Below, piece after piece: positions 14,619 to 62,272 of a DNA stretch of 64,000 nucleotides. Where the stretch lies: contig NC_015312.1 of assembly GCF_000196675.2 (NCBI RefSeq), positions 2,480,001-2,544,000 on the forward strand. Reading direction: 5' to 3'. Positions within the stretch are counted from its first letter, which is position 1. Each line of letters starts with the position of its first letter. The notes under the pieces were generated by a model. That model did no database searches and was not told where the DNA came from. It worked only from the letters and a program-made list of their open reading frames with translations. Source of the DNA: Pseudonocardia benzenivorans CB1190 (GTDB lineage Bacteria; Actinomycetota; Actinomycetes; Mycobacteriales; Pseudonocardiaceae). Position numbers and translations under genes: made by a program.

Positions 14619-14645
14619 ATACCCGAAGCCCCCCGAACGGAAACC
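14619..14645 (-). promoter_or_regulatory. SigF/SigB-like promoter GGTTT-N16-GGGTAT
   Basis: Minus-strand -35 GGTTT (14641-14645), 16 bp spacer, -10 GGGTAT (14619-14624). The match to the actinobacterial SigF consensus is complete by eye. It precedes the glycosyltransferase/phosphatase/nnrD operon, leaving a leader of roughly 65 nt. Confidence 0.65.
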
Positions 14646-14663
14646 GCGCCGGGACGGCACGGG

Positions 14664-15716
14664 TCAGGCACGTGAGCGCGCCCGCCGCGGCTCGCCCGCG
14701 ACGGTGTCGGCCGCGTCGGCGCCGCGCGCGCCCATCGGCTCGGCGGGCCCGCGCGTGGTGTCACGCGCCGTCTGCCGCTCGCTCTCGGCGTTGATCTCGG
14801 CCCCGAGCAGGACGATGTAGCTGGTCAGGTACAGCCACAGCAGCAGCACGACGGCGCCGGCCAGCGCACCGTAGGTCTTGTTGTAGGAGCCGAAGTTGTC
14901 GACGTACACGCTGAAGACGATGCTGCCGACGAGCCACAGGACGGTGGCCACGACCGCCCCGACGCTGACCCAGCGGAACTTCGGCGCGTCGCGGTCGGGG
15001 GCCACGCGGTAGACGACCGCGAGCGCGACGACGACCAGCACGACGAGCAGCACCCACCGCACGACCTGCGCGACGACGAGCCCGGCACCGCCGAGACCCA
15101 CGGCCTCGAACACGGCGGGCATCGCGGCGACGAGCGCGACCGCGAGCAGTACGAACACGATCGCGGCGAGGGTCAGGCCGAGCGCCGTGCCCCGCAGCCG
15201 CAGGAAGCCACGGGTCTCCTCCTCGTCGTAGGCGAGGTTGGTGGCCCTGATCAGGTTCATCGTGCCCGCCGAGGCGCTCCACAGCGCGGCGAGCAGCGAC
15301 ACCACCAGGCCGACGCCGAGGGCGCCGGTGCCCGCGCTGCTCACCGCGCCGAGCTGGTCGGCGACGATCGGGCGCGCCGCCGCCGGCAGGATCGCGGCGA
15401 GCCGGTCGACCTGGTCACCGACCTGCGCGGGGTCCGCGACCAGGCCGTAGACGGTGATGGCGGCGATCAGCGCCGGGAACAGCGCGAGGAAGGCGAAGAA
15501 CGCGACCCCGCCCGCGAGGATCGGCACGTTGTCCGCCTTGGCCTCCGCCCACGCCCGCCGGGTCACCTGCCACCAGCCGGCGGGCGGTACCTGCGCCGGG
15601 GTGCGGGCCCGCCTGCCGGGGACCTGCGCGTCGTCACCGCCGTCCGGCGTCCGGCCGTCACGGTCGGTGCGGTCCTGACCGGCCGGGTCTCGTCTCGTCG
15701 TCACGACGGACCACAT
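14664..15716 (-). CDS. YihY/BrkB-family inner-membrane protein
   Basis: 350 residues. About 70 hydrophilic residues are followed by six hydrophobic helices. The family pattern ILAGGVAFFAFLALFPALIA lies near residue 90, SLLAALWSASAGTMNLI near 170, and NFGSYNKTYGALAGAVVLLLW near 280. The tail is hydrophilic. It was once mis-annotated as ribonuclease BN; the function is unknown, with transport or envelope roles suggested. ATG 15716 is used; a GTG 12 bases in (15704) is an alternative. It stands alone, 117 bp after the start of the glycosyltransferase operon on the same strand. Confidence 0.85.
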   Translation of the reverse strand: MWSVVTTRRDPAGQDRTDRDGRTPDGGDDAQVPGRRARTPAQVPPAGWWQVTRRAWAEAKADNVPILAGGVAFFAFLALFPALIAAITVYGLVADPAQVGDQVDRLAAILPAAARPIVADQLGAVSSAGTGALGVGLVVSLLAALWSASAGTMNLIRATNLAYDEEETRGFLRLRGTALGLTLAAIVFVLLAVALVAAMPAVFEAVGLGGAGLVVAQVVRWVLLVVLVVVALAVVYRVAPDRDAPKFRWVSVGAVVATVLWLVGSIVFSVYVDNFGSYNKTYGALAGAVVLLLWLYLTSYIVLLGAEINAESERQTARDTTRGPAEPMGARGADAADTVAGEPRRARSRA

Positions 15717-15795
15717 GCCCCGCCCGGGGGCGGTCGAATCCTGCCCGCCGCGAGGGAACCGGCTCACGCGGGGGACCACCCTGCACCGGGCCGGT

Positions 15796-15831
15796 GAGCG
15801 GCGATGGTCGCCAGGGCGACCATCGCCGCTC
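15796..15831 (-). terminator. Perfect 16-bp hairpin, likely terminator of the ANTAR gene
   Basis: The arms 15796-15811 and 15816-15831 are perfectly complementary (GAGCGGCGATGGTCGC on the left) around a CAGG loop. It lies 170 bp after the end of the minus-strand GAF-ANTAR gene and 80 bp before yihY. A bidirectional terminator or a protein-binding palindrome are both possible. Confidence 0.6.
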
Positions 15832-15863
15832 CCGACCTCGGGGCGCCCGGCCGCACCCGCGGG

Positions 15864-16012
15864 CCCGAGGCTCCCCGCGGGCTGCGCCGGCGCGGGCCGG
15901 GCTCGTAGGGGGCGCACCCCGCGTGGGCCGGAGGCTCGACCGGGGTGCGCCCGCGCGGGGTATGAAGGCTCGCAGCGGGGTTGCGCCGGCGGGTCGGGCC
16001 GTCAGAGCTCGC
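15864..16012. repeat. Degenerate short repeats AGGCTC...TGCGCC
   Basis: At least three related units begin near 15867, 15931 and 15964, each with (G/A)AGGCTC followed by a CGGGGTTGCGCC-like core; a weaker fourth copy runs into the 3' end of the ANTAR gene near 16003. Spacing is irregular (about 64, 33 and 39 bp). They look like decayed REP-type elements. Confidence 0.4.
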
Positions 16013-16745
16013 AGCGGCGCTGTGTGACGGTGCCGGCGATGTCGGCGAGCTTGACGTTCATCCGCTGCGACACCGAGCGCAGGATCTCGAAGGCCTGCTC
16101 CTCGGTGATGCCCTCGCGCTCCATGAGGATGCCCTTGGCCTGCCCGATGACGTCGCGGTTGCGTAGCGCTGCGCGCAGGTTCTCGTTCGTGCGCTCCGCC
16201 GCCAGGGCGGCTCGCCGGGTGTCGAGTACGGTGGCGGTGTGCGCGGCGAGCACGACCGCGGCGTCGAGGTCGGCCCCGTCGAGACCGCCGCGCCCGCGGG
16301 ACAGGAAGTTCAGCGCGCCGAGACGCGGCGGCTCCTCGTGGGCGAACAGCCCGACCGCCAACGCGCTGTGCACGCCGTCGTGGGCTGCGGCGGGGCCCCA
16401 GCGGGCGAGTCGCGTATCGGCCCCGAGGTCCGAGGAGGCGAACACGCCGAGCCCGGCCCGACTGCTGGCCAGCAAGCACGGACCCTCGCGCAACCGGTAC
16501 TGCAGCTCGTCGAGGCGGGCGGCGAGCGGCTCGGTGCAGACCGCGGTCTCGAACGTGCCGTCGTCGAGGTGGATCGTCACGCTGACCAGGTCCGCCGCGG
16601 GGACCATCGCGCCGGCGGCCTCGACGATCAGCCTCAACGCGTCCTCCGGCGTGGCCGTCTTGCCGAGCGCCGCCGCCACCATCGAGAACTCGTGGGCCCA
16701 GTCATGGGCACCCGCCCCGTTCGCCACGGCGTCGCCGCCCTCCAC
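16002..16745 (-). CDS. GAF and ANTAR domain transcription antiterminator
   Basis: 247 residues. A GAF domain (residues about 20-165) is followed by a helical linker and a C-terminal ANTAR domain whose hallmark helix NRDVIGQAKGILMEREG is near residue 195. ANTAR proteins bind paired RNA hairpins in leaders and prevent termination; the GAF domain would sense the signal. GTG 16745 is chosen because it follows GAGGG at six bases; longer in-frame options (16778, 16814) lack a ribosome site. Its RNA targets are not evident nearby. Confidence 0.85.
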   Translation of the reverse strand: MEGGDAVANGAGAHDWAHEFSMVAAALGKTATPEDALRLIVEAAGAMVPAADLVSVTIHLDDGTFETAVCTEPLAARLDELQYRLREGPCLLASSRAGLGVFASSDLGADTRLARWGPAAAHDGVHSALAVGLFAHEEPPRLGALNFLSRGRGGLDGADLDAAVVLAAHTATVLDTRRAALAAERTNENLRAALRNRDVIGQAKGILMEREGITEEQAFEILRSVSQRMNVKLADIAGTVTQRRCEL

Positions 16746-16893
16746 GGTCGTCCCTCGAAACCCGTCACGTGTCGCCACCGAACGTACTGCCGCGCCGTCC
16801 GTGCAGGAAACCACCGCGCGGCCTCATCCTGTCCCCCGGACCTGCGCGCCGGACCTGGGCGCGGTCGTCTCGCCCGCGTTGCCGAGCTGGGTG

Positions 16894-17439: not shown

Positions 17440-17464
17440 GTACCCGTGGCCGGACGGTTCATCC
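17440..17464 (-). promoter_or_regulatory. SigF-like promoter GGATG-N14-GGGTAC, nine bases before ATG
   Basis: Minus-strand -10 GGGTAC (17440-17445), 14 bp spacer, -35 GGATG (17460-17464). The geometry (nine bases from -10 to ATG) recurs at 37119-37143 and 49517-49541, and for the -10 alone at 62177-62182. Confidence 0.5.
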
Positions 17465-19400: not shown

Positions 19401-19425
19401 CTACCCGGTGGATCGCGGCGCACGC
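19401..19425 (-). promoter_or_regulatory. SigF-like promoter GCGTG-N14-GGGTAG for the DUF4383 gene
   Basis: Minus-strand -10 GGGTAG (19401-19406), 14 bp spacer, loose -35 GCGTG (19421-19425). Divergent from 19430-19454; the -35 elements almost touch. Confidence 0.4.
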
Positions 19426-19429: not shown

Positions 19430-19454
19430 GATTCGACGACGCCGTCGCGGGTAG
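19430..19454 (+). promoter_or_regulatory. SigF-like promoter GATTC-N14-GGGTAG
   Basis: -35 GATTC (19430-19434), 14 bp spacer, -10 GGGTAG (19449-19454). Faces the small acidic gene at 19533 and possibly the hemerythrin gene beyond it. Confidence 0.4.
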
Positions 19455-20519: not shown

Positions 20520-21782
20520 ATGACATCGCAGCCGCCCGGCACTCCCGACGGGGAGACCTTCTCGGCCCTCGGCCTGCGGGTCGAGGTGATCCGGCCGTCG
20601 ACACGGCTGACGGTGCTGCGCTGCGTGGGGGAGATCGACCTGATCAACGGACCGGTGTTGCGGGACTGGATCGACGAGTTCGCCGCGTCGCGGACCGTCC
20701 TCGACCTCACGGGAGTCCGCTTCCTCGGGCTCTCGGCCGCCCGCGACCTCTGCCGGGTGCAGGCCGACCTGCGCGCCCGCGGCGACAACCTCTACGTCGT
20801 GGCGTCGCCGGACGGCGCCGTCCGGCGCATCCTGACCGTCGTCGGCGGTCTGACGCTCCTGGCGCCCCGGCCCCGGGTCGCCGACTCCCCAGGCCCCGGG
20901 TCGGCACCCGACCCGGGTCCCGCGGCGCCGGGGACGACCCGACCGCCGCTAGCGCGGCGGACCGCGACGCGGAGCGCGCCGCTCACCGCCCCCGGGATCA
21001 CCGCCCCGGGATCACCGGGCCGAACCGGGCTCGGCCATCCGCCGGTGCATGCGGGCCTTGACGCCGTCGGGCAGCACGTTGCCGGTGGCGCCTGGGCCTT
21101 GGTGCCGACGGACCCTGCGACGATCTTCGCCCGGCCCGACAGCATCGCCTCGACGCCCTGCTCGGCGACCTGCGCCGGGTCGTCCTTCCACCGCGCCGAC
21201 CCGGGTGTCGTCCACGTCCGCGCGGTGGAAGAAGTCGGTCTCGGTCGGGCCCGGCATCAGCGCGGGCATGGTCGCCTCGATCGACGACGTGACCAGCACG
21301 CGCCCCTCACCCCGGGAGACCATGTCGCGCAGGACGTGCTCGGCCAACCGGACGGTCGAGGTCACGTTGAGGTCGATGATGTCCTGCTCGTCGTCGACGT
21401 CGATGTCGACGAACGCGCCGCCCTGCCCGACGCCAGTTGTCACGTCGTTCGCCTACCCGCGTGGCGCCGATCCATCCACCGCACGTGGGCGGCTCAGGTG
21501 ATCGGGGAACCGCCGGTCACGCCGAGCACCTCGGACGTCATGTACGACGACTCCTGCGAGGCGAGGAACACGAAGAACGGCGCGAGCTCGGCCGGTTGCG
21601 CGGCGCGGCCCATCGGGGCCTGCGCGCCGAACGAGTCGAGCTTGTCCGCGCCCATCGTGGCGGGGATCAGCGGCGTCCACACCGGGCCGGGTGCGACCGA
21701 GTTGGCACGGATTCCGCGCTCGACGAGGTTGTGCCCGAGTCCCTTGGTGAAGTTGACGATCGCGGCCTTGGACGTCGCGTAG
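20520..21782 (+). CDS. STAS-domain anti-sigma factor antagonist with an unsupported C-terminal read-through
   Basis: The first ~115 residues are a STAS domain: RLTVLRCVGEIDLINGP, TVLDLTGVRFLGLSAARDL (the phospho-Ser site in the STAS motif is FLGLSA) and a C-terminal helix. It should bind an RsbW-like kinase such as those encoded at 23871 or 50611 and free a sigma factor. The frame then stays open to 21782, antisense across an SDR pseudogene and into the 3' end of the next SDR gene. Only about 20520-20985 looks like real protein; the extension has no similarity I can see. The original stop was probably lost. Confidence 0.7.
   Translation: MTSQPPGTPDGETFSALGLRVEVIRPSTRLTVLRCVGEIDLINGPVLRDWIDEFAASRTVLDLTGVRFLGLSAARDLCRVQADLRARGDNLYVVASPDGAVRRILTVVGGLTLLAPRPRVADSPGPGSAPDPGPAAPGTTRPPLARRTATRSAPLTAPGITAPGSPGRTGLGHPPVHAGLDAVGQHVAGGAWALVPTDPATIFARPDSIASTPCSATCAGSSFHRADPGVVHVRAVEEVGLGRARHQRGHGRLDRRRDQHAPLTPGDHVAQDVLGQPDGRGHVEVDDVLLVVDVDVDERAALPDASCHVVRLPAWRRSIHRTWAAQVIGEPPVTPSTSDVMYDDSCEARNTKNGASSAGCAARPIGACAPNESSLSAPIVAGISGVHTGPGATELARIPRSTRLCPSPLVKLTIAALDVA
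21012..21443 (-). pseudogene. Short-chain dehydrogenase relic
   Basis: On the minus strand an SDR is recognisable in pieces. The segment after the NAG motif is present (GVGQGGAFVDIDVDDEQ). The catalytic Ser region VTSSIEATMPA then runs straight into LMPGPTETDFF, so the YxxxK active-site part (about 40 residues) is deleted. After HRADVDDTRVG the frame shifts (MLSGRAKIVAGSVGTKAQ is in another frame), then shifts back for the C-terminus KARMHRRMAEPGSAR. The Rossmann N-terminus is also missing. It lies antisense to the open tail of the STAS gene. Confidence 0.75.
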
Positions 21783-22390: not shown

Positions 22391-22687
22391 GGATCCTCCG
22401 GGTCGGGCCGGTGTGTCGCCGGGTCGAGACGCGGCACGGCACGAGCCGGCGGTGGGCGCCGGCCGCGACTGTCGCGTCGCGAGAGGTCCGGCCGCCGCCG
22501 CGGGGCTCCCGGTGGTCGCGCGGTGGCGGCCGCGGTCTCCGCGTTCCCCGGCGGGCTCGGTTCATTCCTGCGGTCTCCCCGGCGAGGCCGGCGACCGTGG
22601 GCGAGGTCCGCCCGGACCGGTGTGTCGGCAGCACGGTCGCGGGTACAGCAGAGGTCACGGAACATCCGCGACCCAGGAAGTGAGCAG
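22391..22687. other. Divergent spacer between the SDR gene and the Rv2629-like gene
   Basis: Carries the SigF-like promoter at 22620-22646 facing right. No comparable -10 is visible facing the SDR gene. No reading frame in it resembles a protein family. Confidence 0.4.
22620..22646 (+). promoter_or_regulatory. SigF/SigB-like promoter GTGTG-N16-GGGTAC
   Basis: -35 GTGTG (22620-22624), 16 bp spacer, -10 GGGTAC (22641-22646). It lies 41 bp before the Rv2629-like gene and could read on through the anti-sigma and sigma genes, giving autoregulation. Confidence 0.5.
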
Positions 22688-23845
22688 ATGCGACTCGACT
22701 GGCTGCGCCCGGCCTGCGATCGGCCCGGACCGTTCGCGACAGTGCTGATCGACGCCACCCACGACACCGAGGACGCCGCCGAGCTGGATCGGCTGCGCCG
22801 CCGCGAGGTCGGGGCCGCGCTCGCCGACCAGGGCGCGCCGGAGGACGTGCGCGAGGCCGTCGAGGCCGCGCTCGCCGGTCCGCCACCACCCGACGGCACC
22901 GCGGGACGGGTGCTGGTCGCCGACGCGACGGGCGTGCTGGTCGACCGCCTCACGCCGGTGCCGCCGGCGGCACCGGCCGCGCGCTGGGGTCCCCTGCCCG
23001 ACCTGCTCGCCGTCGTGACGGAGGTGCCGGAGCCGGTGCGGACGGTGCGGGTCCAGGTCCACGAGACGGGCGGCGAGATCGCTGTCCCGGGCGAGGACCC
23101 GGTGACCGTCGGCGGCGAGACGCCGGTGCACAAGGTGCCCGCCGGCGGCGCGTCGCACCTGCCGATGCAGGAGCGGGTCGAGGAGAGTTGGCGGCGCAAC
23201 ACCGCTGCCGTCGCCGAGGCCACCGAGCGGGCGGTCCAGCGGACCGGGGCGGAGGTGCTCGTCCTGACCGGCGACGCGCCCGCCCGGGCCCGGCTGCGCG
23301 ACCGGCTGTCGCGGCGGTGCACCGACGTCCTCGTCGAGATCGAGCACAGCGGCGGGGAGCGCGGCGCGGACCTGCCCGACACCGTCGCCCGGGCCGAGGA
23401 CGACGTGCGTGCGCTGCGGCGGCGCACCGCGCTCGACCGGTTCGCCCGGGCCGCCGGGCACGGTGACGGGCTCGCCGTCAGCGGTGAGGCCGACGTGCTC
23501 GCCGCCGCGCGCGCCCAGGCCGTCGAGACGCTGCTCGTCGATCCGGCCGCCGTACCCGCCGACGAGGTGTGGTTCGGGACCGACCCGGCCGCCCTCGCCG
23601 CCGACGAGGCGGGTCTGGCAGCCATCGGGAGCACCCCGGCGGGCCGCGCTCCCGTCGCCGCGGCGTTGCTGCGTGCGGCCGTCGTCACGGATGCGGACGT
23701 CGTCGTGACCGGACCGGCGGGCCCGGACGCGCGCGACCCGCTCGACCCGGACGTCCCCGGCGAGCAGGACGAGGAGCAGCCGGCGGGACCGGTGCTGCGG
23801 CACGGCCTGGGCGCGGTCCTGCGGTTCCCGGTCGCCGCCGGCTGA
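22688..23845 (+). CDS. baeRF/Rv2629-type protein, eRF1-related (Balon-like ribosome hibernation candidate)
   Basis: 385 residues. The layout matches the bacterial eRF1-like (baeRF) family to which Mycobacterium Rv2629 belongs: an N-terminal domain with FATVLIDATHDTED, a central segment SHLPMQERVEESWRRNTA, and a C-terminal pelota/eRF1-like domain with VETLLVDPAAVP. Relatives of this family (Balon, and the mycobacterial homologue) bind stalled or idle ribosomes in dormancy; that function is inferred here. Cytosolic. ATG 22688 follows GTGAGCAG. It is followed at 25 bp by the anti-sigma gene and preceded by a SigF-like promoter. Confidence 0.78.
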   Translation: MRLDWLRPACDRPGPFATVLIDATHDTEDAAELDRLRRREVGAALADQGAPEDVREAVEAALAGPPPPDGTAGRVLVADATGVLVDRLTPVPPAAPAARWGPLPDLLAVVTEVPEPVRTVRVQVHETGGEIAVPGEDPVTVGGETPVHKVPAGGASHLPMQERVEESWRRNTAAVAEATERAVQRTGAEVLVLTGDAPARARLRDRLSRRCTDVLVEIEHSGGERGADLPDTVARAEDDVRALRRRTALDRFARAAGHGDGLAVSGEADVLAAARAQAVETLLVDPAAVPADEVWFGTDPAALAADEAGLAAIGSTPAGRAPVAAALLRAAVVTDADVVVTGPAGPDARDPLDPDVPGEQDEEQPAGPVLRHGLGAVLRFPVAAG

Positions 23846-23870: not shown

Positions 23871-24284
23871 ATGGAGCTCTTCTGCACGCTCGAGGTCGAG
23901 GCCGAGCCGCACCGGCTCGGCCTCGTCCGGCATGCCGTCGAGGTGTGGCTCATGGCGGTGCGCTGGCCGCGAGGGGCGATGTCGCCGATCGTCTTCGCGG
24001 TCAGCGAGATCGTCAGCAACAGCATCGAGCATGCCTACCCGATCGAACCCCCGGGACCGGTGCGGATCGCGCTCGCCGTCGAGGTGGTGAGCCCGGGGTG
24101 CGAGCGGATCCGGGTGGTGGTCAGCGACCGCGGGCGCTGGCGCACGGCGGGCCCGGAGCCAGGCCGCGGCAACGGGCTGCCGCTGGTCGAGACGCTGTGC
24201 GCGGCGGTCGAGGTCGTCACCGACGCCGAGGGCACCCGGCTGACGCTGCTGAGCGAGCCCGTCGCCCGGGGGGACCGCCCGTGA
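23871..24284 (+). CDS. RsbW-like serine kinase/anti-sigma factor
   Basis: 137 residues, an HATPase_c_2 domain. The N box is EIVSNSIEHAYP (residues about 45-56), with DRGRW as the G1 box and GRGNGLPLVETL as the G2 lid. It would hold the SigF-type factor inactive and phosphorylate a STAS antagonist. The length is normal for the family. The start ATG 23871 has no strong ribosome site, and the gene follows the Rv2629-like gene by 25 bp, suggesting coupled expression. The sigma factor gene follows 120 bp later. Confidence 0.85.
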   Translation: MELFCTLEVEAEPHRLGLVRHAVEVWLMAVRWPRGAMSPIVFAVSEIVSNSIEHAYPIEPPGPVRIALAVEVVSPGCERIRVVVSDRGRWRTAGPEPGRGNGLPLVETLCAAVEVVTDAEGTRLTLLSEPVARGDRP

Positions 24285-24404: not shown

Positions 24405-25217
24405 ATGCGCACACTTCCCGCCCACCGCGCCGATCCCGACGTCCGGCCTGACGGTGAGTTCGGTGACCAGCTCGAGCGGCTCCACCGGCTCGCCCGGCTC
24501 CCGGCCGACGATCCGGCCCGCGACGCGCTGCGCGACGACCTGATCCTGACGTTCCTGCCGGTCGCGGAACGCATCGCGGGCCGGCACGCCTCCGCCACCC
24601 CCTGGTCGCGTGAGGACCTGCGGCAGGCGGCGTCGGAGGCGGTCGTGCGCGCGGTCGACCGCTGGGACCCCGAGCGGGCCCAGGGCGACTTCCTCGGCTA
24701 CCTCGTGCCCTGCGTGCGCGGTGAGGTGCTGCGCTGGTTCCGCGACCAGTCCTGGAGCGTGCGGGTCCCGCGCCGGCTCAAGGAGCTCTCCGTCGCGATC
24801 CGGTCCGCCCACGGGCCGATGGCCCAGCGGTTGGGCAGCGCGCCGCGCCCCTCGGAGCTCGCTCGCGAGCTCGGCGTCGACATCGAGGAGGTGCTGGAGG
24901 CGCTGCACGCGGAGGAGAACCACCGGGCCGCGACGCTCGACGCCCCCGCACCCGGGGACGAGCGGCTGCCCGGCGAGCAGCTCGGTGAGATCGACCGCCA
25001 GCTCGAGCTCGTCGAGGACGCCGAGACGCTGCGCCCGTTGATCGCCGCACTGCCCGAGCGCGAGCGCCGCATCCTGCTGCTGCGGTTCTACGGCGGCCGC
25101 ACCCAGAGCCAGATCGGGGAGGAACTCGGCGTCTCGCAGATGCACGTGTCGCGGCTGCTCAGTCGCACGCTCGCCCGGCTGCGGGCCGCCATGCTCGACG
25201 ACACGCCCCCTGGCTGA
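24405..25217 (+). CDS. SigB/SigF/SigG-type sigma-70 factor (first copy)
   Basis: 270 residues. Region 2 is seen in LTFLPVAERIAGRH, DLRQAASEAVVRAVDRWDP and the DNA-melting part LRWFRDQSWSVRVPRRLKE; region 3 in RPSELARELGVDIEEV; region 4 HTH in TQSQIGEELGVSQMHVSRLL. It belongs to the stress/sporulation group that recognises GTTT...GGGTAT-type promoters. ATG 24405 is preceded by GGAG; a GTG six bases upstream is possible. Partner of the RsbW-like gene before it. Compared with the second copy (51231) it lacks the long Asp/His/Ala-rich N-terminal tail. Confidence 0.88.
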   Translation: MRTLPAHRADPDVRPDGEFGDQLERLHRLARLPADDPARDALRDDLILTFLPVAERIAGRHASATPWSREDLRQAASEAVVRAVDRWDPERAQGDFLGYLVPCVRGEVLRWFRDQSWSVRVPRRLKELSVAIRSAHGPMAQRLGSAPRPSELARELGVDIEEVLEALHAEENHRAATLDAPAPGDERLPGEQLGEIDRQLELVEDAETLRPLIAALPERERRILLLRFYGGRTQSQIGEELGVSQMHVSRLLSRTLARLRAAMLDDTPPG

Positions 25218-28552: not shown

Positions 28553-28553
28553 G

Positions 28554-50610: not shown

Positions 50611-51042
50611 ATGACCGTCATGGACCGGCAGTCCCTGCATCTCGGGCTGGACGCGCAGCCGCAGCAGGTCAGCCTGGTCCGGCGGGCGCTACAGACCTGG
50701 CTCGCCGCCAACGGCTGGCCCGACTCGGCGACGGACGAGCTGGTGTTCGCGGTCGTCGAGGCGTTCAGCAACAGCGTCCAGCACGCCTATCCGGGCTTCG
50801 CGTCCGGGCGCGTCACGATCGAGCTGGCCCTGCAGGCGACGACGCCGGGCCGCATGCGGGTGCTCGCCGTGGTCACGGACTTCGGGCACTGGCGCGACGC
50901 CGGCGCGCACCCCTGCCCCGGCAACGGGCTGGCGCTGATCCGGTCGGTCTCGCAGGGCATGACCCTGGCGACCGGCGACGCGGGAACCTGCCTGACGGTG
51001 TGGACCGACGACGAGGAGCTGGTCGCGGCGGAGCGACGGTGA
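50611..51042 (+). CDS. RsbW-like anti-sigma factor/serine kinase (second copy)
   Basis: 143 residues, HATPase_c_2 domain. N box VVEAFSNSVQHAYPG (near residue 50), G1 region DFGHWRD, G2 lid PGNGLALIRSVS. It should bind the sigma factor encoded next and phosphorylate the STAS protein at 53830. The first ATG (50611) has GGAGATGA upstream; a second ATG follows at codon 4. Confidence 0.86.
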   Translation: MTVMDRQSLHLGLDAQPQQVSLVRRALQTWLAANGWPDSATDELVFAVVEAFSNSVQHAYPGFASGRVTIELALQATTPGRMRVLAVVTDFGHWRDAGAHPCPGNGLALIRSVSQGMTLATGDAGTCLTVWTDDEELVAAERR

Positions 51043-52237: not shown

Positions 52238-53833
52238 ATGGATCCCCACGGTGAGCAGCTGCGACGGCTGCAGGCGCTCACCGACTCCGACCTCGCCCGG
52301 CTCGACGTCGACGAGCTGCTCGAGGCGGTCCTCGAACGCGTCCGCGACCTCTTGCATGTCGACACCGGCGCCGTGCTGCTGCTCGAGCCGTCCGGGGCGT
52401 TCCTCGTCGCGAGGGCCGCGCTGGGTCTGGAGGAGGAGACCCGCCAGGGCGTGCGGATCCCGTTCGGTCGAGGTTTCGCCGGCCGGGTCGCCCAGGAGCG
52501 CAAGGCCGTCACCATCGCCGAGGTCGACCACGGCAACGTCCTCAACCCGATCCTGCGCGAGAAGGGGATCCGTTCGCTGCTCGGTGTCCCCCTGTGCATC
52601 GGCGAGGACGTCATCGGGGTCGTGCACGTCGGGACGCTCGAACCACGCATCTTCACCGCCGAGGACGCCGAGCTGCTGCAGCTCGCGGCCGATCGCATCG
52701 CGCTCGCCACCCGGGCCCGGATGACGCATGCCGAGCTCACGGCCGCGTCGGTGCTGCAACGCAGCCTGCTGCCCGGCCTGCTGCCCGAGATCCCGGGCCT
52801 CGAGCTCGCCGCGCGCTACGTCCCCGGGGGCGGCGGGGACGTCGGCGGCGACTGGTACGACGTGTTCGACCTGCCGTCGGGACGACTGTGCGTGGTGGTG
52901 GGGGACGTCGTCGGTCGCGGGCTGAACGCGTCGGTGGCGATGAGCAGGCTGCGCAGCGCGATGCGCGCGTACGCCCTGGTCAGCGACGATCCGTCGGAGA
53001 TGCTCCGGCGCCTCGACGAACAGACCCGGCACTTCGAGCCCGACGTCATGGCGACCGTGCTGTGCGCGGTCGTGGAGCCGACCCTCGACGTCGCCCGCGT
53101 GTCGTCGGCCGGGCACCCGCCGCCGATCCGGGCCGTCCCCGGCCACCCCGGCGAGCTGGTGGAGATGCCGGCGGACCCGCCGATCGGCCTGACCCGGTCA
53201 CGGCGACGGCACACGACCATGGTCGACCTGCCCGCGGGTGGTGGGCTCGTGCTCTACACCGACGGGCTCGTCGAACGCCGCCACGAGTCGCTCGACACCG
53301 GGCTGCAGCGGCTCATGTCCGCCGTCGTCCCGGGCCCGGCGGAGCTGGTGTGCAGCACCGTGATGGGCCGGATGATCGGCAACCACCAGGCGGTCGACGA
53401 CGTGGCCCTGCTCGTCGTGATGCGGTCGGCCGCCGCGGTGACGGGCGGCTCCCTCACGCTCGTCGAGCCGGCCGAACCCCGGTCGCTTCGGGTCATCCGG
53501 CACGCCGTGCGGACCTACGTCGAGGCGCTCGGCGCGACGCCCGCCGAGACCGCCGACCTCGTCCTCGCCGTCGGTGAGGCGTGCGCGAACGCGGTCGAGC
53601 ACGCCTACGGTCCCGGTGGCGGGACGGTCGAGGTCCAGCTGGAGCGCGACGGCCCGCGGCTGACCGTCACCGTCACCGACACCGGCTCGTGGCGCGATCC
53701 CCGCGGGACGAACCGGGGCCGAGGGACGACACTGATGTACGCCCTGATGGACGACATCCGGGTCGACCGTGGTCTCGGTGGCACGCAGGTGGTGCTCACG
53801 ACGACGCTGGGCCGGAGGGAGGACACGGCATGA
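52238..53833 (+). CDS. GAF-SpoIIE phosphatase-HATPase fusion (RsbU/RsbW-type switch)
   Basis: 531 residues, three modules. The GAF domain (about 25-170) has LHVDTGAVLLLE. The SpoIIE-type PP2C phosphatase (about 175-375) has GGGGDVGGDWYDVF, VGDVVGRGLNA and HPPPIRAV with metal-binding Asp. The HATPase_c_2 kinase (about 410-525) has GEACANAVEHAYG and DTGSWRDPRG. It could dephosphorylate the STAS antagonist and also bind or phosphorylate it, setting the switch by an input at the GAF domain. ATG 52238; GTG 52229 with GAGGAGG is an alternative. Confidence 0.88.
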   Translation: MDPHGEQLRRLQALTDSDLARLDVDELLEAVLERVRDLLHVDTGAVLLLEPSGAFLVARAALGLEEETRQGVRIPFGRGFAGRVAQERKAVTIAEVDHGNVLNPILREKGIRSLLGVPLCIGEDVIGVVHVGTLEPRIFTAEDAELLQLAADRIALATRARMTHAELTAASVLQRSLLPGLLPEIPGLELAARYVPGGGGDVGGDWYDVFDLPSGRLCVVVGDVVGRGLNASVAMSRLRSAMRAYALVSDDPSEMLRRLDEQTRHFEPDVMATVLCAVVEPTLDVARVSSAGHPPPIRAVPGHPGELVEMPADPPIGLTRSRRRHTTMVDLPAGGGLVLYTDGLVERRHESLDTGLQRLMSAVVPGPAELVCSTVMGRMIGNHQAVDDVALLVVMRSAAAVTGGSLTLVEPAEPRSLRVIRHAVRTYVEALGATPAETADLVLAVGEACANAVEHAYGPGGGTVEVQLERDGPRLTVTVTDTGSWRDPRGTNRGRGTTLMYALMDDIRVDRGLGGTQVVLTTTLGRREDTA

Positions 53834-54147
53834 CCGATGCAGAGGTGACGTGCCGGGAGCCGGCGCCCGGCACCGTCGAGATCGTCGTCACCGGGGAGAT
53901 CGACCTGCAGAACGCGGGCGCGGTCGAGCGGCGCATCCACGACATGGTCGACAACGAGGCCCGGTCGGTCACCATCGACCTCGGCGCCCTCGAGTACCTC
54001 GACAGCGCCGGCCTGCGTGTCCTGTTCACCCTGGCGTCGCGGCTCGAGCTGCTGCAGGTGGCGTTCGACGTGCGGGTGCCGGAGGGCTCGGTCGTCCGCC
54101 GGGCTGTCGATCTGTCGGGGCTCGGCGACATCGTGGCGGTCCACTGA
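53830..54147 (+). CDS. STAS-domain anti-sigma factor antagonist
   Basis: 105 residues. GTVEIVVTGEIDLQNAG, then IDLGALEYLDSAGLRVLF with the phospho-acceptor Ser in LDSAG (near residue 58), and a C-terminal helix with EGSVVRRAVDLSGL. It is the RsbV of the module and completes the set RsbW-sigma-phosphatase-STAS. ATG 53830 overlaps the phosphatase stop (ATGA). Confidence 0.9.
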   Translation: MTDAEVTCREPAPGTVEIVVTGEIDLQNAGAVERRIHDMVDNEARSVTIDLGALEYLDSAGLRVLFTLASRLELLQVAFDVRVPEGSVVRRAVDLSGLGDIVAVH

Positions 54148-54636: not shown

Positions 54637-54702
54637 GCGGAATTCCCGCGCGACGCGGAATTCCCGCGTGACGCGGAATTCCCGTGCGACGCGGATAACC
54701 CG
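54637..54702 (+). repeat. 18-bp tandem repeat GCGGAATTCCCGCGCGAC
   Basis: Three near-perfect copies (54637-54654, 54655-54672, 54673-54690) and a partial fourth (54691-54702); a partial copy also precedes them at 54626. Each contains the palindromic core GGAATTCC. They end in the -35 of the promoter at 54693-54719, so they may be protein-binding sites for gas vesicle control. Confidence 0.75.
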
Positions 54703-54719
54703 GGCCCGGTGCCGGGTAA
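54693..54719 (+). promoter_or_regulatory. SigF-like promoter GGATA-N16-GGGTAA
   Basis: -35 GGATA (54693-54697), 16 bp spacer, -10 GGGTAA (54714-54719), 55 bp before the membrane protein gene at 54775. It overlaps the last partial unit of the tandem repeat. Confidence 0.45.
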
Positions 54720-55218: not shown

Positions 55219-55509
55219 CGCGACCGGTCTCGTGGTCGGCGCCGCCGCGATCGGCGGCGGATTCCGACCAGAGCAAGGCGTTCGGGCATTCGGAGGTCCG
55301 GCACCCGGATGAATCTCGATCACTCGCGTGAAATGGCCCGGCGGAATAGGCCGAACGGCCCATTTATCGGTGATTGGGCTCGCGAATGTGTGGGTCCGGA
55401 TTGGCTCGGGTAACTGGTGGCGACCCAGGCCCGACCTGCACTCCGCTCCGATTCGTGATCTTCGAATTCGGATCTCGAGTCCGGGGCGGGTCACGATCAA
55501 GGAGGAAAG
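55219..55509 (+). promoter_or_regulatory. Leader region of the gas vesicle operon
   Basis: About 290 bp, less GC-rich than the genes around. Carries the SigF-like promoter at 55388-55413 and the ribosome site AGGAGGAAAG of gvpY. Nothing else recognised. Confidence 0.45.
55388..55413 (+). promoter_or_regulatory. SigF-like promoter GTGTG-N15-GGGTAA of the gas vesicle operon
   Basis: -35 GTGTG (55388-55392), 15 bp spacer, -10 GGGTAA (55408-55413), 96 bp before gvpY. Same hexamers and spacing as before the CBS gene. Confidence 0.5.
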
Positions 55510-57631: not shown

Positions 57632-58069
57632 ATGACGGTCGCGACCCAGGCCGCGGGAGGCGGTCACGTCGACCGCGGTGGCGGCGGTGGTTCGAGCGGA
57701 CTGGCCGACGTCGTCGAGCTGATCCTCGACAAGGGGCTGGTCATCGACGTCTTCGTCCGGGTGTCGCTGGTGGGGATCGAGATCCTCACGATCGACGCGC
57801 GGGTCGTCGTCGCCAGCGTCGACACGTTCCTGCGGTTCGCCGAGGCCACCAACCGGCTCGACCTCTACGGGAAGGGCAAGGGCGGTAAGGACCTCACCGA
57901 GCTGACCCAGGGGATGATGGAGGGCGGCGCGAAGGGCAAGACGGCCGGAGTGCTGGACGCGGCCGTCGACAAGGTCGGCGAGCTGCTCGGGGGCGACGAG
58001 GAGGACGAGCGCGAGCCCGTCCGCAAACGCCCACGGCAGCGGGCCCGGGAACGGGAGCGTGAGCGGTGA
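57632..58069 (+). CDS. gvpA: Gas vesicle major shell protein GvpA-like
   Basis: 145 residues. The GvpA core at residues about 24-78: [40 protein letters not shown] and [15 protein letters not shown]. It forms the amphiphilic rib wall of gas vesicles. The N-terminus is Gly-rich and the C-terminus has a long charged tail ([15 protein letters not shown]), as in other actinobacterial GvpA proteins, which are longer than the ~70-residue cyanobacterial form. ATG 57632 directly follows the gvpZ stop. Confidence 0.9.
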
Positions 58070-58797
58070 CCGCCACCTACGTGTACGGCCTCGTGGCTGC
58101 CGGCACCACTCTGCCCGACGACCTCGTCGGCCTCGGCCCGTCGGGACGGGTGTCGCTCGTCGAGCACGACGGCGTCGCCGCGATCGTCGGTGACGTCCCG
58201 GACCGGCCGCTCGGCACCCGCGACGACCTGACGGCCCACGAGGCCGTCGTCGACACCGTCGCCGCCGCGACGACGGTGCTGCCGATGCGGTTCCCGGCCG
58301 TCGTCGAGGACTCCCAGGTGGTCGACGAGCTCCTCGCGCCGCACCAGGACCGCTTCCTGCGCGCCCTCGAGCAGCTCGACGGCATGGTCCAGTACTCGCT
58401 CAAGGGCCGCTACGTGGAGGAGGTCCTGCTCAAGGAGATCGTCGAGGAGGAGCCGGCGGTCGCCGAGCTGCAGGAGCGGATCCGCGGGGTGTCCGAGGAC
58501 GCGTCGTACTACGACCGCGTGAAGCTCGGCGAGATCGTGGCCAAGGCGATGGAGGAGCGGCGCGACGTCGACGCGAACGACATCCTGGACCGGATCTCGC
58601 CGTTCGCCGAGCAGGCGTCGCCGACGACGCCTCCCCAGCCCGACGAGGTCGTCGACATCGCGTTCCTCGTCCGCCGTGACGGGGTGGAGCAGTTCGAGAG
58701 CGAGGTCGAGGAGCTCGGCGCGGACACCCACGAGTGGCTGCGCCTGCGGTTGCTCGGGCCCCTCGCGCCCTACGACTTCGTCCCGGCGGAGGAGTGA
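58066..58797 (+). CDS. gvpF: Gas vesicle protein GvpF/GvpL family (first copy)
   Basis: 243 residues. YVYGLVAAG at the N-terminus, [22 protein letters not shown] (near residue 60) and a C-terminal domain with [22 protein letters not shown]. GvpF/L proteins bind GvpA and start assembly. GTG 58066 overlaps the gvpA stop by 4 bp. Confidence 0.9.
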
Positions 58798-58803
58798 TCG
58801 CCG

Positions 58804-59034
58804 ATGGGACTCGTGTCCGGTCTGCTGGGCCTGCCGCTCGCCCCCGTCCGCGGGGTCGTGTGGCTGGCCCGGCAGATCCAGGACCAGGCCGAGGAGCAGT
58901 ACTACGACCCGGCCCGGATCCGCGCGGAGCTGGAGGCCGTCGACGAGGCCCGTCGCAACGGGACCCTCACCGAGGAGGAGTGCGTCGAACGCGAGAACGA
59001 GCTGCTGCAACGGCTGATGGTCCGACGGACCTGA
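58804..59034 (+). CDS. gvpG: Gas vesicle protein GvpG
   Basis: 76 residues, helical: GLLGLPLAPVRGVVWLARQI followed by the acidic helix LEAVDEARRNGTLTEEECVE. Fits GvpG in size and pattern. It starts six bases after gvpF. Confidence 0.88.
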   Translation: MGLVSGLLGLPLAPVRGVVWLARQIQDQAEEQYYDPARIRAELEAVDEARRNGTLTEEECVERENELLQRLMVRRT

Positions 59035-59066
59035 CCGGGCAGCCGGGACGAGACGCGACCGAGGAC

Positions 59067-59903
59067 ATGAGCGATGACCGCGAGGGACCACGCCGCAGGC
59101 CGGCACGTGACCGGCCGGCGCGGCGCCGGCAGGCTGGTGCCGAGGACTCCGAGGACCGACCGGACGAGGTGATCGACCGGTCCGCCGATCCGGACGACAG
59201 CGGCCCCGACGCCGGGCCCGACGCCGACGAGGGTGTCGAGCCGGACGACGAGCGCGACGCCGACGAGGGTGTCGAACCCGACGACGAGTCCGACGAGGGG
59301 TTCGGCGACGAGCTGGACGGGGACGACGGGGACCGTGACGCGGAGGCCGCCCCGGCCGCCCGCGGCGGGTCCCGTGGCCGGCGCGCCGAGGCGACCCGGG
59401 GCGGCCGTTCCACCCGCACCGCGGGCCGGACGACGTCGCGCAGGTCCGCGGCCGGCGGGCGGCGCAACGGGTCGTCGCACGACACGGCGACCGACGCCGG
59501 GCCGGAGGACGGGGCCTCGGAGAACGGGGGCTCGGAGAACGGGGGTTCGGAGAACGGGACCCCTGGCCGGAAGACCCCTGCCCGGAAGTCCCCTGCCCGG
59601 AAGACCTCGGGCCGGAGGAACCCCGACGACGGGATCTCCCCGGGCGCCGCGGCCCGGCGGGCCGCGGAGCACATCGTCGGCCTGACGGGCCGGGACCTGG
59701 AGAGCGTCGTGTCGATCGAGCGAGACGACGACGAGGGCGGGTGGCAGATCGGGGTCGAGGTCGTCGAGACCCGGCGGATCCCCGACTCCGCTGACATCCT
59801 GGCGCTGTTCGAGGTGCGTGTCGACGAGGACGGCGAGCTGGCCGGGTTCCGGCGCGTCGGCCGCTACAGCCGCGGCCGGCTGTACGAGAACGGAGGACGA
59901 TGA
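59067..59903 (+). CDS. gvpO: GvpO-domain gas vesicle protein with disordered repeat N-terminus
   Basis: 278 residues. The C-terminal ~90 are GvpO (AARRAAEHIVGLTGRDLESV, then WQIGVEVVETRRIPDSADIL, then YSRGRLYENG). The N-terminal ~185 are acidic (DEGVEPDDE repeats), then basic, then repeats of SENGG and KTPARKSPARK encoded by short direct DNA repeats at 59515-59615. Usual GvpO is about 100-150 residues, so the extension is unusual. ATG 59067; its stop overlaps gvpJ. Confidence 0.85.
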   Translation: MSDDREGPRRRPARDRPARRRQAGAEDSEDRPDEVIDRSADPDDSGPDAGPDADEGVEPDDERDADEGVEPDDESDEGFGDELDGDDGDRDAEAAPAARGGSRGRRAEATRGGRSTRTAGRTTSRRSAAGGRRNGSSHDTATDAGPEDGASENGGSENGGSENGTPGRKTPARKSPARKTSGRRNPDDGISPGAAARRAAEHIVGLTGRDLESVVSIERDDDEGGWQIGVEVVETRRIPDSADILALFEVRVDEDGELAGFRRVGRYSRGRLYENGGR

Positions 59904-60307
59904 CCAGCGGAGGGCTTCCGATGCCCGGCGGCGCGTCCCGCCCGGCCGAGCGCCGCGTGGAGTCGACGAACCTGGCCGACATCCTTGAACGCGTTCTCGA
60001 CAAGGGGATCGTGATCGCGGGCGACATCCGGGTGAACCTGCTCGACATCGAGCTGCTGACGATCAAGATCCGGTTGCTCGTCGCGTCGGTCGACAAGGCC
60101 CGCGAGATCGGGATCGACTGGTGGGAACACGACCCGACCCTCAGCTCGGGGCAGCGCGACCTGAACGAGGAGAACCGCCGGCTGCGGCAGCGGATCGGTG
60201 ACCTCGAGGCCGCGCGTACCGCGGAGCTGGACGGGGCGCCGGAGCGGCCGCGCCGGTCTGCTGTGCGGCGCAGGGCAGAGGAGCAGGAGCAGGAGTCCGA
60301 CGGGTGA
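59900..60307 (+). CDS. gvpJ: Gas vesicle minor structural protein GvpJ-like
   Basis: 135 residues. GvpA-fold core NLADILERVLDKGIVIAGDI, then LLDIELLTIKIRLLVASVDK and AREIGIDWW (residues about 24-75), the last typical of GvpJ. A C-terminal coiled coil (NEENRRLRQRIGDLE) and a charged tail follow. It probably caps or shapes the vesicle tips. ATG overlaps gvpO stop by 4 bp. Confidence 0.88.
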   Translation: MTSGGLPMPGGASRPAERRVESTNLADILERVLDKGIVIAGDIRVNLLDIELLTIKIRLLVASVDKAREIGIDWWEHDPTLSSGQRDLNEENRRLRQRIGDLEAARTAELDGAPERPRRSAVRRRAEEQEQESDG

Positions 60308-61053
60308 GCCTGGTCTGGGTGTACGCCGTGCGCGACGGGGACGCCGACGACCCGCCCGCAGTGTCCGGTGTGGACGGTGAGCGGCCCCGCGTCGTCGCCG
60401 CCGGGACGCTCGGCGCGGTCGTCGGGACCGTCGCCGACGAGGGCTTCGACGAGGCCGGGCTCGCCGCCGCGATGGAGGATCTCGCCCGGCTGGAGGCGCT
60501 CGCGAGGGCGCACCACGCCGTCGTGGTCGAGGCGGGGAGCGCCGGGGCCGTCGCCCCGGTGCGGCTGGCGACGGTCTTCCGCGACGACGAGGCGGTCGTC
60601 GCGATGCTGCGTGAACGGGCCGACGAGTTCGAGGCCGCGCTCGACCGCGTGCGCGGGCGCCGCGAGTGGGGGGTGAAGGTCTACGCGGACACGCGGGCCG
60701 GCGGCGACGACAGCCCGGCGCCGGCGCCGGGCGACCGGCCGGGCACGGCATACCTGTTGCGGCGCAAGGCTGATCGCGACCGCGGTGCGGCCGGTCGGGA
60801 GCGCGCACGCGCCGTCGCGGAGTCGGTCGCCGACGCCGCCGGGACCCACGCGGTCGACGTCCGTCGGTTCGCGCTGCAGGACGCCCGGCTCTCGGGCCGG
60901 AACGAGGAGATGGTCCTCAACGCGACGTTCCTCGTCGACGAGACGCAGGAGGCGGAGTTCCGGGCCGCGGTCACGGGCGCGGGCGACGGTGCCACCGTGG
61001 AGCTGACCGGGCCGTGGCCGCCCTTCTCGTTCGCGACGGCGGACCCGCCGTGA
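60304..61053 (+). CDS. gvpL: Gas vesicle protein GvpF/GvpL family (second copy)
   Basis: 249 residues. WVYAVRDG start, RLEALARAHHAVVVEAGSAG, then APVRLATVFRDD and REWGVKVYAD (near residue 120), matching GvpL. The GTG start overlaps gvpJ and the stop overlaps gvpS. Confidence 0.88.
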   Translation: MSLVWVYAVRDGDADDPPAVSGVDGERPRVVAAGTLGAVVGTVADEGFDEAGLAAAMEDLARLEALARAHHAVVVEAGSAGAVAPVRLATVFRDDEAVVAMLRERADEFEAALDRVRGRREWGVKVYADTRAGGDDSPAPAPGDRPGTAYLLRRKADRDRGAAGRERARAVAESVADAAGTHAVDVRRFALQDARLSGRNEEMVLNATFLVDETQEAEFRAAVTGAGDGATVELTGPWPPFSFATADPP

Positions 61054-61250
61054 CGCTCGCGCATCCCGACGACGAGCTCAGCCTCGTCGACCTCCTCGAC
61101 CGGCTGCTCGCCGGCGGGGTGGTGCTCACCGGGGAGGTCACCATCTCGCTCGCCGAGGTCGATCTCGTGCACGTGTCGCTGCGCGCGCTGATCAGCTCGG
61201 TGTCGACGCTCGCCGTCGGCCCCGACCCGGGGGAGGGCGACGGTGCCTGA
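61050..61250 (+). CDS. gvpS: Small GvpA-fold protein GvpS-like
   Basis: 66 residues. SLVDLLDRLLAGGVVLTGEV and SLAEVDLVHVSLRALISSVS give the shortened GvpA fold seen in actinobacterial GvpS. The GTG start overlaps gvpL by 4 bp and the gene overlaps gvpK by 8 bp. Confidence 0.82.
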   Translation: MTLAHPDDELSLVDLLDRLLAGGVVLTGEVTISLAEVDLVHVSLRALISSVSTLAVGPDPGEGDGA

Positions 61251-61542
61251 GCTGCCGAGCCGCATCGACGCCCAGCCCGACACGGTCGGCCGCGACCTCG
61301 GTCGGCTGGTGCTGACCGTCGTCGAGCTCCTGCGCCAGCTCATGGAGCGGCAGGCGCTGCGCCGGGTCGACGCGGGGGACCTCCCGGACGAGAAGATCGA
61401 GGCGCTGGGGGTCGGCCTGATGCGGCTGGAGGAGGCGATGGTCGAGCTCCGGGAGCACTTCGGCCTCGAGCCCGGGGACCTGAACATCGACCTCGGCCCG
61501 CTCGGGAACCTGCTGGGTCCCGAGGCGGGACAAGGCCGGTGA
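61243..61542 (+). CDS. gvpK: Gas vesicle protein GvpK
   Basis: 99 residues. LVLTVVELLRQLMERQALRR (near residue 22) and KIEALGVGLMRLEEAMVELR are hallmarks of GvpK; the tail GLEPGDLNIDLGPLGNLL ends it. Last gene of the operon. GTG start. Confidence 0.9.
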   Translation: MPELPSRIDAQPDTVGRDLGRLVLTVVELLRQLMERQALRRVDAGDLPDEKIEALGVGLMRLEEAMVELREHFGLEPGDLNIDLGPLGNLLGPEAGQGR

Positions 61543-61582
61543 CGGCGCGGACGCCCGTCGCGTAGCGCCGCTGCCCGGACGG

Positions 61583-61846
61583 TCAGAGCGCCGGGTGGTC
61601 CGGAGTGCCCCCGCCGGAGTGCAGCCGGCCCAGCATCTCGGTGACGGCCTCGTCGCCCGCGTCGGTGAGCTGCTGGTCGACGAAGATGCCCGACGCCGTC
61701 TCGATCCGCTCGCGTTCGGTCCCCGGGTCGGCGATGACCGCCTCCGGTGTGACCGTCGGGTCCGCGAGCAGCTCGGCCACGGCGGCGCGGACGTCGTCGA
61801 GTGAGTGCTGTTCCTCGAACGCGATGTCGGACAGGCGACGGCCCAT
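61583..61846 (-). CDS. Small hypothetical protein
   Basis: 87 residues, hydrophilic, helical. FEEQHSLDDVRAAVAELLAD and IETASGIFVDQQLTDAGDEA are the most structured segments. ATG 61846 follows GGAGGTCACCCC. It is convergent with the gas vesicle operon and has a clear GGTTC-N15-GGGTAC promoter. Family unknown. Confidence 0.6.
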   Translation of the reverse strand: MGRRLSDIAFEEQHSLDDVRAAVAELLADPTVTPEAVIADPGTERERIETASGIFVDQQLTDAGDEAVTEMLGRLHSGGGTPDHPAL

Positions 61847-61917
61847 GGGGTGACCTCCGGGGTGCGAGCCGGCAGAACCGGACGTGGGCCCGCGACGACC
61901 GCGGGTGCAGGTCGGTG

Positions 61918-61943
61918 GTACCCACGCGGGTCCGCCGGGAACC
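61918..61943 (-). promoter_or_regulatory. SigF-like promoter GGTTC-N15-GGGTAC
   Basis: Minus-strand -10 GGGTAC (61918-61923), 15 bp spacer, -35 GGTTC (61939-61943), 71 bp before the 87-residue gene. Confidence 0.5.
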
Positions 61944-61969
61944 GCGCCCGGCGTGTCCCGGTCGGCGGG

Positions 61970-62167
61970 TCAGGCGTCCTGGCCCTGCGGTGCCCCGGAG
62001 CTCGTCCCGGAGTCGGGTGGGCGGGTGTCGCGGTCGTCGCGGCGCCGGTCGGGCCGGCCGCCGCGGTCCGGGCCGGTTCCGCTGTCGGGGTAGCCGTCCT
62101 CGACGGTCACCGCATCGGGTTCGTCGCGGGGGTGCAGGTCACGGGAGCCGTGCGGGTGCGTGCCCAT
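61970..62167 (-). CDS. Small hypothetical protein
   Basis: 65 residues, very hydrophilic, rich in Asp, Arg, Gly, Pro; a disordered peptide. ATG 62167 has no ribosome site; a GGGTAC element (62177-62182) ends nine bases before it, as for the genes at 17430 and 49551. Reality of the gene rests on that geometry only. Confidence 0.4.
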   Translation of the reverse strand: MGTHPHGSRDLHPRDEPDAVTVEDGYPDSGTGPDRGGRPDRRRDDRDTRPPDSGTSSGAPQGQDA

Positions 62168-62246
62168 GACGGGTGGGTACCCCCGAAGGCCCCGGCGTAC
62201 CGGCCGGCGCCGCCGGGTGGTTGTGCCCGGGTGGTTCTGGCCGGGT

Positions 62247-62272
62247 GGTTGTGATCGTGGCGGGCGGGGTAC
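62247..62272 (+). promoter_or_regulatory. SigF-like promoter GGTTG-N15-GGGTAC
   Basis: -35 GGTTG (62247-62251), 15 bp spacer, -10 GGGTAC (62267-62272), 84 bp before the acyl-CoA-dehydrogenase-like gene. Confidence 0.45.

Follow-up and report, generated by a model that had tools for sequence, protein, structure and literature searches.

Candidate SigF/SigB-type promoters packed around paralogous sigma-factor genes in a Pseudonocardia genome

Introduction

Do the SigF/SigB-like boxes that precede many genes around two SigF-type sigma genes of a Pseudonocardia chromosome define one stress regulon, and which sigma factor would read them? The locus is a stretch of 64,000 nucleotides (hereafter the window; C1:2480001-2544000 of a 7.44-Mb genome), and positions given below are window coordinates unless prefixed with C1, G or L. 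An initial annotation had listed fifteen such boxes, had attributed the genes behind them to a single stress regulon, and had called for a control in which upstream and other positions are compared. Here we report that the boxes are concentrated before genes in an island around the sigma genes and recur before orthologous genes in relatives, and we consider it probable that the window sits inside a partner-switching, self-activating SigF-type stress island.

Results

Candidate promoters were defined by a loose motif, a GGGTA -10 box with a GNNTN -35 box at 14-16 bp, and were counted as upstream when they lay at most 250 nt before a start codon on the same strand. Genes were called with a simple codon-model caller, which may have misplaced individual start codons, and gaps and strand were used to deduce operons. 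GGGTAN with a GNNTN -35 at this spacing was present at all fifteen positions of the initial annotation (nine on the + strand, six on the - strand; + sites are cited by the start of the -35, - sites by the low end of the -10), and each of the fifteen also agrees with the actinobacterial SigF/SigB-type promoter (GGGTA -10, GNNT or GTTT -35, 14-17 bp). The two sites said to match GGTTT-N15/16-GGGTAT exactly were located at 14624 (-) and 28873 (-). The boxes at 36455 and 55388, described as identical, share the -35 (GTGTG), the spacer length (15) and the -10 (GGGTAA) but not the letters of the spacer. Two uncited upstream boxes also fit the loose rule, one at 21458 (-) and a weak one at 62175 (+). 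The sites, with the open reading frames (ORFs) behind them, are:

14619..14645, - strand: GGTTT-N16-GGGTAT, before 13431-14546, first gene of a putative glycan operon
17440..17464, - strand: GGATG-N14-GGGTAC, 9 nt before ORF 17227-17430
19401..19425, - strand: GCGTG-N14-GGGTAG, before DUF4383 gene 18898-19353
19430..19454, + strand: GATTC-N14-GGGTAG, before 19533 and hemerythrin gene 19851-20429
21453..21477, - strand: GGATG-N14-GGGTAG (uncited), 9 nt before SDR-like fragment 21012-21443
22620..22646, + strand: GTGTC-N14 (or GTGTG-N16)-GGGTAC, before Rv2629-like, RsbW-like and sigma genes
28868..28893, - strand: GGTTT-N15-GGGTAT, before small gene 28554-28820
35034..35058, + strand: GTTTG-N14-GGGTAG, before zinc alcohol dehydrogenase gene 35114-36304
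36455..36480, + strand: GTGTG-N15-GGGTAA, before CBS protein gene 36553-36969
37119..37143, + strand: GGATG-N14-GGGTAC, 9 nt before ORF 37153
41704..41729, - strand: GGCTT-N15-GGGTAT, before methyltransferase/CDGSH/Haem_oxygenas_2/Methyltransf_33 genes 41615-38793
49517..49541, + strand: GGATA-N14-GGGTAG, 9 nt before F420-dependent LLM oxidoreductase gene 49551
54693..54719, + strand: GGATA-N16-GGGTAA, before uncharacterised gene 54775-55218
55388..55413, + strand: GTGTG-N15-GGGTAA, before 55510, ahead of gas-vesicle genes
61918..61943, - strand: GGTTC-N15-GGGTAC, before 61583-61846
62247..62272, + strand: GGTTG-N15-GGGTAC, before 62357-63379

Of the 57 GGGTA boxes in the window, 32 fall within coding sequence, 16 lie upstream of genes and 9 occupy the rest of the intergenic DNA. 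A -35 accompanied 16/16 of the upstream boxes, compared with 1/9 of the other intergenic and 1/32 of the coding ones, and the local upstream enrichment thus held in the control that the initial annotation had wanted. The sole intergenic box with a -35 is the cited one at 37138, whose ORF start (37153) had been missed by the gene caller. Background counts came from 740 kb of the same genome, taken as 37 unselected stretches of 20 kb, where a -35 stood before 7/39 upstream and 21/341 coding GGGTA; the Fisher P for -35 presence was 8e-9. Per 10 kb of upstream DNA the window held 19.9 sites against 0.92 in the unselected stretches (about 22-fold), that is, 16 sites seen for 0.74 expected (Poisson P about 2e-16). 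A second comparison set comprised 11 further stretches of the genome, chosen for containing a sigma gene or a GTTT-type match; here the rate was 3.5 sites per 10 kb, and 9/22 upstream GGGTA had a -35. The variant -10 boxes GGGAA and GGGCA were likewise more frequent in the window, each with 4 sites and a rate of 5.0 per 10 kb, vs 1.2 and 2.1. The reversed motif in upstream DNA was found 0 times in the window, 4 times in the relatives' islands, 3 times in the unselected stretches (7 sense sites vs 3 reversed) and once in the relatives' background; the corresponding numbers for the motif on the other strand were 3, 44, 5 and 10.

Could the boxes be chance matches favored by GC-rich upstream DNA? 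The loose motif is common throughout the genome with no excess over its reversed form (608 matches, 302+306, vs 736, 361+375), and some of the -35 boxes are weak. A raw count alone is therefore misleading, and the initial annotation was right to want a control; we rejected the whole-genome loose count as support since coding matches dominate it and the reversed control is higher. The signal is positional and local, not one of raw count. Such position-specific enrichment refutes chance as a general account, and conservation with orthologues (see below) speaks against it as well. Moreover, when the 25 nt ahead of the boxes were shuffled, just 4.3 of the 23 own-island sites retained a G..T, even though the 23 had been picked for it. 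For the set as a whole we hold chance to be extremely unlikely; the single sites 17445 and 61923 could be chance matches. The stricter form GTTTN14-17GGGTAT had 8 matches genome-wide, of which the window holds 2. Another two are identical copies that we take to be a stretch of 16S rRNA, and the raw list overstates the number accordingly.

In the 100 kb to the left of the window there were 2 upstream sites. On the right, 7 upstream sites were found in the first 36 kb (+77.9 to +92.5 kb), none in the next 64 kb, and none in the 40 kb around the fourth sigma gene. From these counts the island begins near 14.6 kb and reaches to around +93 kb, roughly 80 kb in all, and ends some 30 kb past the window. 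A gap of 8-10 nt between the end of the hexamer and the start codon was seen in 5/23 own-island sites and 14/62 sites of relatives, and the remaining sites lay mostly 25-120 nt away; if transcription starts 5-9 nt after the -10, mRNAs from the close sites would be almost leaderless.

The sites recur in relatives in two ways. First, 17 of the 20 stretches fetched around a sigma match in relatives carried at least one upstream site. The relatives had 62 sites in 19 sigma stretches (15.2 per 10 kb upstream) vs 7 in 19 background stretches (1.9; Fisher P 4e-11), where the background was drawn from seven of the twelve genomes that supply island stretches and the island total is without L206, which has 0 upstream sites. 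Secondly, in footprints of the 13-95 kb region a site preceded 24/32 orthologues of site-bearing genes vs 13/145 of other genes, a contrast that is somewhat flattered by the operon-internal genes and paralogous sigmas in the latter group. Orthologues here are the top tblastn matches, one per fetched locus, at 40% identity or more across half of the query, and the count of 24/32 excludes 36553, the CBS gene, which was tallied apart. Upstream enrichment is thus found in the window, and conservation with orthologues is found for the set.

The same boxes might be the operator of a DNA-binding regulator rather than a sigma promoter. Two boxes at 14-16 spacing with a diverged spacer, a subset of sites 8-10 nt from the start codon, and agreement with published SigF promoters all argue for promoters, and we judge an operator very unlikely.

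The sigma genes and their presumptive partners in the window are:

23871..24284, + strand: RsbW-like anti-sigma candidate (HATPase_c_2 domain match)
24405..25217, + strand: SigF-type sigma with the unusual stretch LRQAASEAV (domain, motif and tree)
50620..51042, + strand: RsbW-like anti-sigma candidate (HATPase_c_2 domain match)
51231..52142, + strand: SigF-type sigma (regions 2, 3 and 4; TIGR02980)
52238..53833, + strand: GAF-SpoIIE-HATPase_c_2 protein, phosphatase/switch candidate (domain match)
53830..54147, + strand: STAS protein, anti-anti-sigma candidate (domain match)

Both resident sigma genes named in the initial annotation appear to be of the SigB/F/G type. The product of 51231 scored 239.0 bits against TIGR02980 (SigB/SigF/SigG; cut-off 234.35) with regions 2, 3 and 4 present; that of 24405 scored 215.9 bits, below the cut-off, with regions 2-4 present and a clade in common with 51231. 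An RsbW-like HATPase_c_2 gene precedes each of them (23871, 50620), and both gene groups are headed by a motif site (22641, 49536). Beside 51231 there is a partner-switching gene set (50620, 53830, 52238), and beside 24405 only the RsbW-like 23871.

A SigBFG model gave 14 matches in the genome, seven strong and seven weaker or partial. The strong ones are the two in the window, a third at +89394, a fourth some 172 kb away from the start of the window, and three elsewhere (C1:1595176, 3362413 and 3723353), of which we read C1:3362413 as canonical SigF(-like). In a 65-row tree the four neighboring sigmas fell into one 33-row clade (support 100/99), apart from the 3362413 branch; the +89394 row is long and its exact placement unsure. 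All seven strong sigmas have FRD..W..RVPRR and SQMHVS in common, which we take to be parts of regions 2.4 and 4.2. 24405 and +89394 (L015:5394-6185 +), which group with a G031 sigma in the tree, carry LRQAASEAV or IAQAASEAV in place of the LVQ.GTVGLI type seen in the others, presumably in region 2.2. In relatives, four SigF-type sigma genes lie within about 7-8 kb in L193 (G030 C109), L195 (G052 C65) and L197 (G024 C42), and the 20-kb stretches with these arrays hold 2, 5 and 5 upstream sites, respectively.

Other genes behind the sites are:

22688..23845, + strand: Rv2629-like (baeRF family 2) ribosome-hibernation-factor candidate (PF18844, E 7.5e-33)
26780..28462, - strand: COX1/ctaD-like gene, downstream of 28554 across a gap of about 90 nt
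28554..28820, - strand: 88-aa uncharacterised protein, four helices predicted
57632..61542, + strand: gas-vesicle genes (two Gas_vesicle, two GvpL/GvpF, GvpG, GvpK)

Membership of the glycan operon, the hemerythrin side, the Rv2629-like gene, the CBS gene and the gas-vesicle leader, as the initial annotation had it, is supported by sites before orthologues. The first gene of the putative glycan operon, 13431-14546 (-), is weakly glycosyltransferase-4-like and had a site in 3/3 orthologues, with the -35 and -10 kept and spacer and leader diverged. Sites were present in 3/4 hemerythrin orthologues and in 35/51 homologues of the CBS gene (mostly from Micromonospora), GGGTA lying mostly 45-50 nt before the start. 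The gas-vesicle leader gene 55510 had sites in G040 and G031; its orthologue tally is 1/2, and the locus without a site, in G022, is cut at the stretch end. For the Rv2629-like gene the site was found in 21/30 genus loci (other strand 9, reversed 0). Genus-locus tallies, here and below, cover the best 30 of 41 matches for 22688, the best 30 of 56 for 40992 and all 24 for 28554; they include the own loci L241, L271, L301 and L319, and L242/L243, L274/L275 and L315/L316 look like single-species duplicates. Against NF052289 (Rv2629 family) the 22688 protein scored 238.1 bits over residues 10-342, below the cut-off of 320; it was rejected as a family member on this ground and kept as Rv2629-like.

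By the sites before their orthologues, 49551 with the putative sigma operon that it heads (4/4 orthologues), 54775 (4/4) and 62357-63379 (+; 3/3) also appear to be well-supported members. The last of these genes had no Pfam match and weak NCBIfam matches to DszC/SfnB-type flavoproteins. The zinc alcohol dehydrogenase gene 35114 had a site in 2/3 relatives. No orthologue of 17227, 18898 or 37153 was found in the fetched loci. ORF 37153 (37153-37595 +) overlies a P450-like remnant that has a haem-binding-like stretch in another frame. The SDR-like fragment had a single relative in the fetched loci, without a site; the fragment (21012-21443, -) adjoins a complete SDR gene at 21494-22390.

The family of the 88-aa protein 28554 had a site in 18/24 members, two own loci included (other strand 6, reversed 2), and in several genomes its members adjoin sigma genes, the own paralogue by +89394 and others in G024, G030 and G052. 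Nothing significant was found for it in family and PDB sequence searches. A single-sequence model with a predicted local distance difference test score (pLDDT) of 85 weakly resembles the N-terminal domain of Xer-type recombinases, to which the Foldseek matches were weak (best E 0.09). The ctaD-like gene downstream would belong to the regulon by the gap and operon argument only. Three GAF-ANTAR proteins are encoded within the island, at 16002-16745 (-), 48166-48738 (-) and 48918-49502 (+); they are possible antiterminators.

Discussion

The results favor one set of SigF/SigB-type promoter candidates that lie near sigma genes, are conserved and have the published form. To this extent the proposal of one stress regulon stands for the set, if unevenly for single genes; more than one sigma may read the sites.

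Several observations nevertheless weigh against the interpretation as a conserved island regulon. The other-strand motif is frequent in upstream DNA of relatives (44 vs 76 sense; background 10 vs 8), a control confounded by divergent gene pairs that share the relatives' upstream stretches. Three of the 20 sigma stretches of relatives (L199, L204 and L206) had no site, and neither had the orthologues of 61583 and 84837 in the fetched loci (0/2 each). The methyltransferase gene 40992 had a site in 9/30 genus loci only (other strand 4, reversed 2), and the claimed membership of the methyltransferase/CDGSH operon holds in part. GGGTA without a -35 also occurred 8-10 nt before starts (3/32 and 3/25). 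Since these boxes show the same spacing, at a lower rate, short start-codon spacing was dropped as stand-alone proof; it supports promoters and does not prove them. Finally, across 60 genomes motif excess showed no correlation with how many SigF-type sigma matches a genome has (rho -0.03, P 0.80). Extra sigmas are thus unnecessary for such promoters to exist, and we dropped the idea that they create the excess. GGTTN14-17GGGTA exceeded its reversed form in 60/60 Pseudonocardia genomes, our own included (3033 vs 1283), and SigF-type promoters are likely to be general in the genus, what is distinctive here being the packing.

The same excess bears on who reads the sites. The promoters could be real and read mainly by the canonical SigF-like C1:3362413 or by another SigB/F/G sigma, while the island sigmas overlap, modulate or read another set. 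The seven strong sigmas share both motifs, so that sequence does not say who reads which site; SigB homologues of Streptomyces coelicolor cross-recognise promoters (PMC8346170); and the excess is found in all 60 genomes, 49 of which have at most four sigma matches (E <= 1e-40), with no correlation with their number. Against it, such sites cluster near the island sigma genes both in this genome and in its relatives, and they stand at the head of both sigma gene groups of the window. We give this alternative somewhat less than an even chance. Cross-reading of the sites by several sigmas is likely.

For the self-activating island we propose the following mechanism. We computed the boxes, their local enrichment, their conservation with orthologues, their placement and the gene content; transcription from the boxes, the operons, the reading sigma, the inducing signal and each biochemical reaction in the switch are what we infer. 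A stress signal would act on the GAF-SpoIIE-HATPase protein 52238, which would dephosphorylate the STAS protein 53830; the latter would then remove the RsbW-like 50620 from sigma 51231. Freed 51231 would guide RNA polymerase to GNNTN-N14-16-GGGTA promoters, including the site of its own operon (49536) and the site before the Rv2629-like, RsbW-like and sigma genes (22641), which would amount to positive feedback. The genes switched on in this way would be those for gas vesicles, hemerythrin, CBS and redox proteins and a hibernation-like factor, along with the glycan operon.

A broader scenario, which we offer tentatively and consider rather doubtful, is that Pseudonocardia evolved a separate clade of neighboring SigF paralogues with their own targets as a self-contained, self-activating regulon island. 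The sub-branch of 24405 and +89394, with its remodelled region 2.2, may then bind core polymerase differently or be a decoy or regulator of its siblings, while the family of the 88-aa 28554 protein would add a new component linked to the island. If true, a regulon packed round its own paralogous sigmas would offer a route to study how new stress regulons form. It raises the questions of whether sigma, switch and targets spread together and of how paralogous sigmas divide near-identical promoters. The sites also yield promoter-based candidates for stress genes of uncharacterised function, and they tie the Rv2629-like protein and gas vesicles to putative SigF-type control.

Among the listed matches in open-licence PubMed Central there was no paper on such a Pseudonocardia island. 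Among the closest known systems is the SigF regulon of Mycobacterium smegmatis, where promoters have the form GTTT-N14-19-GGGTA and many SigF-dependent genes lie near sigF and RsbW genes (PMC4694148). Most of MSMEG_1766-1784, several of 1787-1794, and 1801, 1802 and 1804 (sigF) are SigF-dependent, as are MSMEG_1803 and 1807 only in stationary phase (PMC4694148), and the MSMEG_1766-1807 cluster is a precedent for clustering around sigF. The two systems are alike in promoter consensus and in having regulon genes beside sigF and RsbW genes. Mostly outside its cluster, the M. smegmatis regulon includes hemerythrins, Mn-catalase, P450, S-(hydroxymethyl)glutathione dehydrogenases and a xanthine-dehydrogenase-type set, and several start codons there follow the site at a distance of 8-11 nt (PMC4694148, Table 1). 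One P450 in that table has its SigF site 9 nt from the start, as has ORF 37153 here. GGGTA promoters are hypoxia-induced in M. smegmatis (PMC6448022), and the usfX-sigF operon of M. tuberculosis is self-driven (PMC7693655). In contrast to the single sigF of M. smegmatis, there are four neighboring paralogues of a separate clade here, and the Pseudonocardia island adds gas vesicles, an Rv2629-like gene before a sigma gene, and a laxer -35. SigF dependence was tested with mutants in M. smegmatis, whereas the Pseudonocardia sites are candidates read from sequence.

S. coelicolor has nine SigB homologues, and it resembles our locus in having several paralogues, a GNNT or GTTT -35, a GGGTA-like -10 and, as is likely here, cross-recognition (PMC8346170). 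It differs in that the available part of that paper makes no mention of regulon genes packed around sigma genes. Genes for Balon/Rv2629 are often found in stress operons, including operons with alternative sigma-70 factors, and Rv2629 and Msmeg1130 are induced by hypoxia (PMC10901736). The likeness lies in a related protein and a stress-operon setting; the difference is that 22688 falls below the NCBIfam cut-off and that most of the genus homologues examined (21/30) have a SigF-type promoter candidate. Clustering of a sigma regulon around sigF is thus already known, and the packed island with several paralogues described here is a variant of it.

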